Below are positions 967 to 42,698 of a stretch of 48,809 bases of DNA, one piece after another. Under the pieces are notes generated by a model. It searched no databases and was not told the origin of the DNA. It was given only the letters and a program-made list of their open reading frames with translations. Source of the stretch: Acetobacteraceae bacterium (lineage in GTDB: Bacteria; Pseudomonadota; Alphaproteobacteria; Acetobacterales; Acetobacteraceae); contig DAHWFB010000111.1 in NCBI GenBank assembly GCA_027326105.1, positions 1 to 48,809 on the forward strand. Direction: 5' to 3'. Each line of letters begins with the position of its first letter. Position 1 is the first letter of the stretch. Position numbers and translations under genes: made by a program.

Positions 967-1488
967 ATGAGCGAACTCCTGGTGATCGCCTTTTCCTCCG
1001 AAGAGGAGGCCGACGCGGTGCGCGCCAAGCTGCTCGACATGCAGAAATCCTACCTCGTCGATCTCGAGGACGCGGTGGTCGCGGTCAAGACCAAGTCCGG
1101 CCACGTCAAGCTCAGCCAACTGTTCCACCCCACCACCGCGGCGGCGCTTTCGGGCGGGTTCTGGGGCATGCTGATCGGCGCGCTGTTCCTCAACCCGGTG
1201 CTCGGCGCCGCGGTCGGTGCGGCGGGCGGTGCGCTCGCCGGGGCGCTCACCGATGTCGGCATCAATGATGCGTTCATGCGCGACGTCGCCGGCGTGATCG
1301 GTCCCGGCCAGGCCGCGCTCTTCGTGCTGGTGCGCAAGATGACCACCGACAAGGTGCTGGAGAAGCTTTCCGGTGTCGGCGGCACCGTGCTGCGCACCTC
1401 GCTCGATCATTCCAAGGAGCAGGCGCTGCGCGACGCTCTCCAGGGCGTGCTCGGCCGCGCCGGGGAGCCCTCCGCACCGCCGGCTTGA
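967..1488 (+). CDS. DUF1269-type membrane protein with Gly-rich hydrophobic segment
   Basis: MSELLVIAFSSEEEADAVRAKLLDMQKSYLVDLEDAVVAVK... typical of DUF1269 family. Confidence 0.85.
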   Translation: MSELLVIAFSSEEEADAVRAKLLDMQKSYLVDLEDAVVAVKTKSGHVKLSQLFHPTTAAALSGGFWGMLIGALFLNPVLGAAVGAAGGALAGALTDVGINDAFMRDVAGVIGPGQAALFVLVRKMTTDKVLEKLSGVGGTVLRTSLDHSKEQALRDALQGVLGRAGEPSAPPA

Positions 1489-1573
1489 CGCCACCGGCCC
1501 GCCGGCGCGAAGACTGCCGCGCCTGCACCGACGGCCCGCGCCGCGGTTCACAAACGTTTTCGGGGGAAACGCC

Positions 1574-2476
1574 ATGAGCCTCGTCTTGGAGCAGGGACGG
1601 CTGCGCCTGGAACTCGCGCCCGAGGCCGGCGGGTCGATCGCCCGCTTCGACTGGCTCGGCGAGGGGGGTGCGGTGGCGCTGATGCGCCCGGCGACCGCGG
1701 CCGGCCTCGCCGCGCGCGATCCGCTCACCATGGGGTCCTTTCCGCTGGTGCCCTGGTCGGGGCGGATCATCGGCTCGCGCCTGGCGAGCCCTGCGGGGCC
1801 GCGCGTGCTGGCGCTCAACCATCCCGGATTCACCATGCCGATCCATGGGCTGGGCTGGATCACCCCGTGGGAGGTGGTGGCGGCCGGCGCGTCCGCGGCC
1901 CGGCTCGCGCTCGGCAGCGGGCCGCTGCCGACCTGGCCCTACGCCTGGCAGGCGCAACAGGAGTTTCGCCTGGAGGGGGACGCGCTGACGGTGGAGATGA
2001 CGCTGACCAATGAAGGCCCCGAGCCGATGCCGGCGGGGCTGGGCCAGCACCCCTATTTCCCGCGCACGCCGCAGTGCCGGGTCCGTGCCGCCTTGGCGGG
2101 CATCTGGGAGGTCGATCGTGCCAGCATGGCGCCGACGGTGTACGCGCCGGTCGATCCCGCGCGGCTGCCCTTCGCGCGGGGAGCCCTGGTCGCCGACCTC
2201 GATCTCGACAACGGATTTTCCGGCTGGGCGCGCACCGCCGAGATCTCCTGGCCGGAGCATGGGCTTGCGCTCGAGATCACCGGCTCGGAGCCGCTTTCCC
2301 ATGTCATCGTCTATACCCCGCCGCCCGAGCCCTATTTCTGCTTCGAGCCGGTGAGCCAGGTGCCCGATGCCTTCAGCCTCGCCGCCGCCGGCCAGGCGGA
2401 TACCGGCGCGCGGGTGCTGGCGCCGGGCGAGCGTTTCACCGTCGAGATGCGCTTCGCGGCCCGGCGCGCCGGCTGA
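1574..2476 (+). CDS. aldose 1-epimerase family protein
   Basis: GSFPLVPWSGRI, LNHPGFTMPIHGLGW, GLGQHPYFPRT motifs of the galactose mutarotase family. Confidence 0.9.
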   Translation: MSLVLEQGRLRLELAPEAGGSIARFDWLGEGGAVALMRPATAAGLAARDPLTMGSFPLVPWSGRIIGSRLASPAGPRVLALNHPGFTMPIHGLGWITPWEVVAAGASAARLALGSGPLPTWPYAWQAQQEFRLEGDALTVEMTLTNEGPEPMPAGLGQHPYFPRTPQCRVRAALAGIWEVDRASMAPTVYAPVDPARLPFARGALVADLDLDNGFSGWARTAEISWPEHGLALEITGSEPLSHVIVYTPPPEPYFCFEPVSQVPDAFSLAAAGQADTGARVLAPGERFTVEMRFAARRAG

Positions 2477-2502
2477 TCCGGCCACCATCGAAAGGAGCTT
2501 GC

Positions 2503-3267
2503 ATGAGCGATTTCGCGATCTATCCCAGCCTGAACGGGCGCGCGGTCCTGGTTTCCGGTGGCGCGAGCGGCATCGGGGCCGGGATCGTCGAGCATTTCGT
2601 GGCCCAGGGCAGCCGCGTCGCCTTCCTCGATCTTGACGCCGCGGCGGGGGCGGCGCTGGCCGAGAAGCTGGCCGCGAGCGGCCCGCGCCCGTTGTTCCTG
2701 CCCTGCGATCTGCGCGATGTCGGCGCGCTGCGGGCGGCGGTGGCGGCCGCGGCGGCGGCGCACGGGCCGGCGCGGGTGCTGGTCAACAACGCCGCGCGCG
2801 ATGACCGCCACGAGGTCGCCGACGTCACCCCCGAATATTGGGACGAGCGGGTGGCGACCAACCTGCGCCACCAGTTCTTCCTCGCCCAGGCGGTGGCGCC
2901 GGGGATGGCGGCGGCAGGGGGTGGGTCGATCGTCAATTTCGGCTCGATCTCCTGGCATCTCGCGCAGCCGCGCATGACCATCTACGAGAGCTGCAAGGCG
3001 GCGGTGGAGGGGCTGACGAGGGCGCTGGCCCGCGACCTCGGGCCGCAGAAGATCCGCGCCAACTGCGTCATTCCCGGCTGGATCATGACCGAGCGGCAGG
3101 TGGCGCTGTGGCTGACGGCGGAGGCGGAGCGGCAGTTGATGGTCGATCAGTGCCTGAAGGAGAAGCTCTATCCGGCGGATGTCGCACGCATGGTGCTGTG
3201 GCTCGCGGCGGAGGACAGCCGCCTGGTCAGCGCGCAGAACTTCATCGTGGACGGCGGCTGGGCATAA
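2503..3267 (+). CDS. SDR family oxidoreductase
   Basis: GGASGIGAGI nucleotide motif, VNNAARDDR, YESCKAAV active site, C-terminal NFIVDGGWA. Confidence 0.92.
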   Translation: MSDFAIYPSLNGRAVLVSGGASGIGAGIVEHFVAQGSRVAFLDLDAAAGAALAEKLAASGPRPLFLPCDLRDVGALRAAVAAAAAAHGPARVLVNNAARDDRHEVADVTPEYWDERVATNLRHQFFLAQAVAPGMAAAGGGSIVNFGSISWHLAQPRMTIYESCKAAVEGLTRALARDLGPQKIRANCVIPGWIMTERQVALWLTAEAERQLMVDQCLKEKLYPADVARMVLWLAAEDSRLVSAQNFIVDGGWA

Positions 3268-41018: not shown

Positions 41019-41372
41019 TCACCCGCCGATCACCATCCAGTAGCCGCCGCGCCGGCGGCAGGCGGTGCCGCTGGTCTCGGTCACGCCGGTGGCGGAGCGC
41101 ACGCGGGCGCGAAAACGGCGGCAGAAATGGCCGGAGGCGTCGCGCCAGGTCGCGACCGGCATGAAGGAGCCGCGCAGCCCGCGGGCGGGGTCGGCCCAGC
41201 CGGCGCGGGCGCCGCTGGGCAGGCGTTCGAGCGCGAACTGCAAGGCGATCTGCTGCTGGCGGCCGCCGTAGGCCGGTGGCGGCGCCGCGGCGAACCCTCC
41301 CGCCGCGTCTCCCCCCGCCGCGCAGCCGGCGAGCAGCAGGGCGAGCAGGCCGGCGACAAGCCTAGCTCTGGC
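41019..41372 (-). CDS. lipoprotein with RT0821/Lpp0805-type surface-antigen-like domain; start uncertain
   Basis: LVAGLLALLLAGCAAGG lipobox; ...MPVATWRDASGHFCRRFRARVRSATGVTETSGTACRRRGGYWMVIGG; open frame extends to GTG at 41507 but no ATG/GTG/TTG just upstream of the lipobox, so the 41372 bound is approximate. Confidence 0.65.
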   Translation of the reverse strand, partial: ARARLVAGLLALLLAGCAAGGDAAGGFAAAPPPAYGGRQQQIALQFALERLPSGARAGWADPARGLRGSFMPVATWRDASGHFCRRFRARVRSATGVTETSGTACRRRGGYWMVIGG

Positions 41373-42018
41373 GCAGTGCCGGAGGCGGGTCGGAGCCGGG
41401 GACGATGTAGTAGCGCACCCGCCAGCTTCCGTCCGGAAAGTGGCAGGCGAAGCCGAGCCGCAGCGAGCGGACCTGGCCGGAGAGGGTGATCGTTTCGCGG
41501 AACTCACGGCAGAACTGTCCTTCCCGGTTCTTGAAGGTGCGTAGCGGTTCGATGGTGGTCACCGCGCCGGTCGCAGCGTCGCGCCAGGCGGCGAGGCGGC
41601 CGCTCGGCTCCGTGGTCAGGGCGCGCTGGCGCAGGGAGGCGATCTCGGCGTGCTCGGAGCGTTCGTCGCGCGCCTGGCGCGCGGCCGAGAGGGCGGCGAT
41701 GCGCAAACCGCCGAACACGCCGGCTCCGGTCGAAAGCACCACCAGCACGACCGCCGCGGCCATGCGCAGGAACGGGCGTGCGCTGAGCGGGCGGTGCACC
41801 CGCGCGGGCGGTGGGATCATGGCCAGCAGCGCAGGCGGCACCGGCTCGCTCACGATCGGGCCGTAGGCCTGGCCGAGCGCCCAGGCGGTCTCGCGCAGGA
41901 TGCGGACCCGCTCGGCGAGGTCGGGGTCGCGGGCCACGGCGGCGGCGACGGCGGGCGCCTCCGCGGGGTCGAGTTCGCCATCGACGAAGGCGGCGAGGGT
42001 GGTGTCATCGATGCTCAT
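41362..42018 (-). CDS. anti-sigma-factor-like membrane protein with C-terminal surface-antigen-like domain
   Basis: N-term MSIDDTTLAAFVDGELDPAEAPAVAAAVARDPDLAERV; single TM MAAAVVLVVLSTGAGVFGGLRIAAL; C-term LRTFKNREGQFCREFRETITLSGQVRSLRLGFACHFPDGSWRVRYYIV; ATGA overlap with sigma gene. Confidence 0.85.
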   Translation of the reverse strand: MSIDDTTLAAFVDGELDPAEAPAVAAAVARDPDLAERVRILRETAWALGQAYGPIVSEPVPPALLAMIPPPARVHRPLSARPFLRMAAAVVLVVLSTGAGVFGGLRIAALSAARQARDERSEHAEIASLRQRALTTEPSGRLAAWRDAATGAVTTIEPLRTFKNREGQFCREFRETITLSGQVRSLRLGFACHFPDGSWRVRYYIVPGSDPPPALRQS

Positions 42019-42578
42019 GGGGCACATCCAGCATTGCCGGCCGTATCCGGGGCCGGCGGTTCACCAGCGGCAGCCACGCCCGCGAGCCGGCGCAGCGCCA
42101 TCCGTCCGCGGGAGAGGCGGCTCATGATGGTGCCGACCGGAACCTCGAGCAGGGCTGCCGCTTCGGCGTAGGAGAATTGCTCGATCGTCACCAGGACGAT
42201 GACCTCGCGCTGTTCGGGGGGCAGCGCCCGCATCGCCCGGTCCACCTCGGCGAGGCTGAGCCGATCGACCGCGTGCGCCTCGCCGCCGTCGGTCTCGGCC
42301 CGCATGCCGGAGTGGCGGGTCTCGTTGGCGTGGACGAGGCGCACGCGCAACGCCCGCAGCCGGTCGATCCACACGGTCCGGGCGATGCGGAACAGCCAGG
42401 GCTCCATGGCGGTATCGCGGTGCCATTGCCCGATGTGGCGCAGCGCCCGCTCACAGACCGCCTGGGCGAGATCGTCCGCCTCGTCGGCCCGGCCGACGAG
42501 GCCGCGGCAGAAGCGGCGCAGCCGGGGCAGGGCGGCGATCAGCCGGTCGCGGGTCTCGGCGTCGAGGGCGGCGCTCAT
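42015..42578 (-). CDS. ECF-type RNA polymerase sigma factor
   Basis: RLRRFCRGLVGRADEADDLAQAVCERAL; region 4 ALPPEQREVIVLVTIEQFSYAEAAALLEVPVGTIMSRLSRGR. Confidence 0.94.
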   Translation of the reverse strand: MSAALDAETRDRLIAALPRLRRFCRGLVGRADEADDLAQAVCERALRHIGQWHRDTAMEPWLFRIARTVWIDRLRALRVRLVHANETRHSGMRAETDGGEAHAVDRLSLAEVDRAMRALPPEQREVIVLVTIEQFSYAEAAALLEVPVGTIMSRLSRGRMALRRLAGVAAAGEPPAPDTAGNAGCAP

Positions 42579-42698
42579 GCCCTCAAAACGGGTGGGCGGG
42601 GAAGGCTATTCCAGGGGGCGTGCGAAATTTCTGACCAAGCGGGAAGCGGAGGGCGGCCACCGATGCGCCCTCTGCCCGCCGGGCCGCCAGACCGCGCT

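Follow-up and report, generated by a model that had tools for sequence, protein, structure and literature searches.

The 17kDa_Anti_2 domain (PF16998) is familiar chiefly from rickettsiae, as an antigen and a diagnostic marker. The classical 17-kDa surface antigens of the RT0821/Lpp0805 type are glycine-zipper lipoproteins. An arrangement of sigma factor, anti-sigma factor and divergent protease is already known in ECF26, for which the promoter consensus is GGAATA/GT (PMC6180224). In S. meliloti, overexpression of the ECF26 sigma factor RpoE6 induces the protease SMa0142; the C-terminus of the anti-sigma factor has been described only as somewhat like RsiW, the mechanism of ECF26 activation is still hypothetical and no role for RpoE6 could be defined (PMC6180224).

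The window analyzed here is a stretch of 48,809 nucleotides from an Acetobacteraceae bacterium (GCA_027326105.1, contig DAHWFB010000111.1), whose genome assembly is 82% complete. Genes for a sigma factor, an anti-sigma factor and a lipoprotein follow each other on the minus strand, at the positions assigned to them in the preliminary description of this DNA, and the anti-sigma and sigma genes overlap by 13 bp. The features are as follows.

42587–42612, minus strand: ECF26-type promoter, GGAATA-N16-CGTT, 8 bp ahead of the start codon of the sigma gene (pattern match)
42015–42578, minus strand: ECF sigma factor, 187 aa (Sigma70_r2, 50.8 bits; Sigma70_r4_2, 61.5 bits)
41362–42027, minus strand: membrane anti-sigma factor, 221 aa (PF16998 match, alignment, AF2 model)
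41818–42006, minus strand: cytoplasmic helices of the anti-sigma factor, aa 8–70 (AF2 model)
41404–41622, minus strand: periplasmic 17kDa_Anti_2 domain of the anti-sigma factor, about aa 136–208, five strands (Pfam, alignment, AF2 model)
41019–41363 (open frame 41019–41507), minus strand: lipoprotein with lipobox LLAGC (PF16998 match, lipobox, alignment)
41037–41234, minus strand: 17kDa_Anti_2 domain of the lipoprotein (PF16998 and domain profile)

The locus and its relatives resemble RpoE6–EcfR6–SMa0142 in having a homologous sigma factor, the same promoter type, a target adjoining the operon and an anti-sigma factor with a 17-kDa domain, which is weak in the S. meliloti protein; the S. meliloti target, however, is a divergent subtilase and not a tagged repeat protein. 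With RpoE–RseA–RseB the locus shares a membrane anti-sigma factor with one membrane helix and an operon-encoded periplasmic partner, but it differs in the families of the periplasmic domain and of the partner, and no RseB-like fold was found. The domain of the 17-kDa surface antigens is present above the curated cut-off in both window proteins; unlike in the classical antigens, it makes up the periplasmic end of the protein, which is an anti-sigma factor in one case and a plain lipoprotein in the other.

The sigma factor is 43% identical to S. meliloti RpoE6, and this identity and the promoter, rather than a group model, tie it to the ECF26 type. A further feature of ECF26 is also present, in that the downstream anti-sigma factor consists of a cytoplasmic domain, a membrane helix and a periplasmic domain. 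The promoter scores 22.5 bits (best shuffle, 14.0) and agrees with the published ECF26 consensus. In 43 of 101 homologous loci, the motif GGAAN-N14/18-CGT[TC], mostly in the form GGAATA-N15/16-CGTT, lies 5' of the sigma gene, as compared with a mean of 5.3 and a maximum of 11 in 200 shuffles. The window's genome contains eight promoter matches, several of them without a convincing gene behind them, versus none in a reversed control. One of the eight, of the ECF26 type, precedes a UDP-glucose 6-dehydrogenase-like gene by 92 bp (L157, G000:C26:15777).

An AlphaFold model of the anti-sigma factor, built on an alignment of 35 anti-sigma factors including that of the window, has a mean pLDDT of 85.9. 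It consists of N-terminal helices (residues 8–70), a weak linker, a long helix (90–139) containing the membrane span, and a periplasmic domain of five strands (146–208) with pLDDT of about 92–98. Cys173, Arg174, Cys195 and Trp202 are invariant in all 35 aligned proteins. As Cys173 and Cys195 sit on neighboring strands of a hairpin (172–182 and 185–196) in the model, a single disulfide between them is likely. The N-terminus is zf-HC2-like in 32 of the 35 relatives (E up to 0.1), and the profile of the 35 proteins matches the N-terminus of RseA (1or7_C, E 0.016); the Pfam family RseA_N matches 3 of the 35 relatives and gave no match in the window protein. For the periplasmic domain, no significant likeness was found among solved structures. 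In the window's family, loci L142–L155 have a similar sigma factor and anti-sigma N-terminus with different periplasmic domains, several of the GGRLL type.

The preliminary description had claimed that the anti-sigma C-terminus and the adjacent lipoprotein share one domain, which it recognized as the RT0821/Lpp0805 type. The profile search places both in that single family: they score 29.7 and 34.7 bits, respectively, against PF16998 (gathering cut-off, 26.6 bits), and are the only two matches in the whole-genome search. The residue pattern it had proposed fits as well, since the invariant columns in a profile grown from four domains (the window and locus L004) include C38–R39, G57, C60 and W67. 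This profile had no matches in reversed ORFs. PF16998 is absent from 14 well-known control genomes, and at E up to 0.1 it is found in 33 of 35 related anti-sigma factors and all 11 lipoproteins. When iterated more loosely, the domain profile drifted to Rhodanobacter and Sphingopyxis anti-sigma factors; the strict profile was used, and weak 17-kDa-like anti-sigma factors were readmitted only on account of a tail and a subtilase (see below).

Of 398 genomes in the window's family, a single one clearly has the fused 17-kDa anti-sigma factor, and the domain stands alone in many lipoproteins. In a tree of the 17-kDa domain, the anti-sigma, downstream-lipoprotein and standalone forms fall mostly into separate clusters, which argues against a recent duplication within the operon; the tree spans 67 columns and is weakly resolved with long branches, and a recent tandem duplication is unsupported by it. 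The 17-kDa domains of L036, from a genome assigned to the same class as the window, and L075, from a MAG named Anaerolineae, are nearly identical, probably due to misbinning or misnaming.

Near its signal peptide (RLVAGLLALLLAGC), the lipoprotein frame lacks any ATG, GTG or TTG codon. Its sole in-frame start is GTG 41507, within the anti-sigma gene, with no other in 41364–41507. The third-position G+C of 0.93 still marks the frame as coding, and a non-standard start, an assembly error or early decay may account for the missing start codon. The trio of sigma factor, fused anti-sigma factor and 17-kDa lipoprotein also occurs in about a dozen other loci, a co-occurrence that the preliminary description had asked for. 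In these 12 loci (L034, L066, L067, L069–L072, L077, L081 of Caenispirillum salinarum AK4, L082, L110, and L141), the product of the gene 3' of the fused anti-sigma gene is about 300 aa long, ends in the 17-kDa domain and, in most cases, has a visible lipobox. The model of this long lipoprotein (pLDDT 88, pTM 0.81) has a YmcC/GfcB-like N-terminal domain (2in5, E 3.4e-4, TM-score 0.59 on the target); the window lipoprotein is a short form that lacks it. An RseB-like N-terminal domain was considered and rejected, as RseB and LolA fall outside the top 50 folds.

The loci related to the window fall into two branches according to the partner gene. In the first, the partners are products of divergent genes, namely secreted repeat proteins with a high content of G, D, S and E, many of which end in a conserved C-terminal tag, LSxxEExxxIxxGW. 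A divergent copy of the promoter, searched for with a profile trained on sigma promoters, is present in 17 of 19 repeat-protein loci, each with a score reached in no more than 1 of 60 shuffles. Three of the secreted repeat proteins have an intein-like Hint domain between the signal peptide and the repeats, at the following positions of their own loci.

1046–2923, minus strand: Hint-domain repeat protein of L063, from Motiliproteus sediminis
1069–2142, minus strand: Hint-domain repeat protein of L064 (PF13403)
1734–2816, minus strand: Hint-domain repeat protein of L084

In the window's genome, the tagged repeat protein is encoded on another contig (C68, 8416–8946); it is a secreted Gly/Asp-rich protein of 176 aa that ends in the tag VGPDLSPAQERSEIAGGWK. 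It is the only tag match in this genome (E 2.6e-11), its own tag being among the 11 rows of the profile. One of the eight ECF26-type promoter matches lies 50 bp before the gene, and its regulation rests on this match because the gene and the operon are on different contigs. At E<1e-7, the tag is found in 6 of 387 genomes of the class, 5 of them among the 8 genomes with a full-length fused anti-sigma factor (p 5e-9). All five gave a row to the tag profile, and they therefore show where the tag is located, not an independent rediscovery. The informative part of the survey is the absence of the tag from 378 of 379 class genomes without the fused anti-sigma factor. In the sixth tag genome (G404), which is outside the profile, there is a tagged protein with remnants of a Hint domain, followed directly by a 17-kDa gene.

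In the second branch, the partner is a secreted subtilase (PF00082), often with an N-terminal acidic repeat and encoded divergently to the sigma gene, and the anti-sigma factor itself ends in a tail bearing the tag. When the tag profile was trained on repeat proteins only, nearly all the best further matches were anti-sigma C-termini (L076, 4e-5; L080, 1e-3), although several are not significant alone. Loci L037, L062, L079, L106 and L115, with a same-strand subtilase, have neither the anti-sigma tail nor a recognized tag. In L112, L117, L130, L136 and L137 (Sphingopyxis) and in L103, L122 and L133, the sigma and subtilase promoters overlap as a near-palindrome, GGAAGAAACGA...TCGTTTCTTCC, so that one site may fire both ways. 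Judged by sequence, the S. meliloti RpoE6–EcfR6–SMa0142 system fits this branch: EcfR6 has a 17-kDa-like domain (E 5e-7) and a tail without the final GW of the tag, and SMa0142 is a divergent subtilase (E 2e-110).

Domain and partner go together. Among the matches listed, a subtilase or tagged partner accompanies 17-kDa-like anti-sigma factors in 52 of the 53 loci that are covered by enough sequence, as opposed to 2 of 14 loci in which the anti-sigma factor has another periplasmic domain (p 2e-10). These two exceptions appear on inspection to be 17-kDa cases that were overlooked, since L119 is cut by a contig end and L121 has the motif. The extra 17-kDa gene, in turn, is present in 15 of 16 tag loci and almost never seen in the branch of S. 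meliloti (1 of 45 subtilase loci, among the matches listed; p 4e-12). Part of the loci came from a search with an anti-sigma query, and the Fisher tests overstate independence because the loci are related.

The best explanation, which we favor tentatively, is that the ECF26-type operon is devoted to one exported, tagged product for which the 17-kDa domain is the periplasmic sensor. The architecture apart from binding, with the sigma factor driving its own operon and the partner gene, is highly probable. In the window's organism, the sigma factor would transcribe its own operon and the gene for the tagged Gly/Asp-rich protein on C68. The N-terminal helices of the anti-sigma factor would hold the sigma factor, and its single membrane helix would carry the periplasmic 17-kDa sensor domain, probably pinned by one disulfide. 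This domain would report on the export of the tagged product: binding or loss of the tag would change the exposure of the anti-sigma factor to proteolysis, thereby freeing the sigma factor, and the 17-kDa domain of the lipoprotein would bind the same tag as a receiver or competitor to set the feedback. In one branch the domain and the tag belong to two different proteins, and in the other a single chain carries both; by a Rosetta-stone argument, the two may bind one another. It is possible, if rather doubtful, that the 17-kDa domain is the receptor of LSxxEExxxIxxGW, in which case the switch would sense that its own product is exported, and the tag would be presented either by this product or by a tethered mimic within the anti-sigma factor. 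What the sequences themselves show is the domain common to both proteins, the operon with its promoter, the co-regulated partner gene and the co-occurrence; we infer that the tag acts as ligand, which way the signal runs, that proteolysis frees the sigma factor and what the lipoprotein does.

A somewhat unlikely alternative is an envelope stress switch of the RseA/RseB kind, in which the lipoprotein binds the anti-sigma factor via their like domains and shields it from proteolysis, trouble at the outer membrane draws the lipoprotein off, and the tagged protein is only one output. The presence of the same domain in the products of adjacent genes is consistent with this, as are the two-domain lipoproteins, with a lipoprotein-like beta domain beside the 17-kDa domain, and the precedent of RseB, a product of the rpoE operon that attaches to RseA at the latter's periplasmic domain (PMC8103513). 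Nevertheless, the fold of the extra domain is closest to YmcC/GfcB, not RseB or LolA, and among the matches listed the extra 17-kDa gene tracks the tagged protein, not the anti-sigma factor as such.

Binding of a small ligand or an envelope polymer, e.g., a polysaccharide, by the 17-kDa domain is unlikely. The anti-sigma factor and lipoprotein would then compete for it, and the repeat protein and UDP-glucose dehydrogenase would be outputs that build an extracellular layer. The YmcC/GfcB-like domain, the standalone 17-kDa lipoproteins and the promoter before the dehydrogenase-like gene point in this direction; the link to that gene is a single promoter match, and the 17-kDa domain matches no solved structure significantly. 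We know of no ligand for this domain. Neutral reuse, in which each protein recruited the domain as a widespread, stable building block of the periplasm and the two neither touch nor share a ligand, is improbable: the separate clusters in the tree and the unrelated periplasmic domains of other anti-sigma factors in the family would suit it, but among the matches listed the type of domain and the partner gene are coupled in nearly every case, and extra 17-kDa genes keep to tag loci.

Returning to the sensor of an exported, tagged product, the preliminary description had proposed that the anti-sigma periplasmic part senses the state of the envelope, competing with or binding the paralogous lipoprotein. 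The shared family and the co-occurrence of the trio hold, but the input and output of the switch look more specific than that, and the data point to a product made from the same type of promoter, either a secreted repeat protein with the C-terminal tag or a subtilase. The literature searched, which excluded the ECF reclassification paper, held no account of the tag or of PF16998 in an anti-sigma factor, and the PF16998 sensor, paired lipoprotein, tagged repeat protein and tag were not found as parts of such a system in Pfam, NCBIfam or that literature. By tying together a sensor domain, a target and a conserved tag, the locus names a candidate ligand for ECF26 activation and, if this is true, would give the 17kDa_Anti_2 domain a function.
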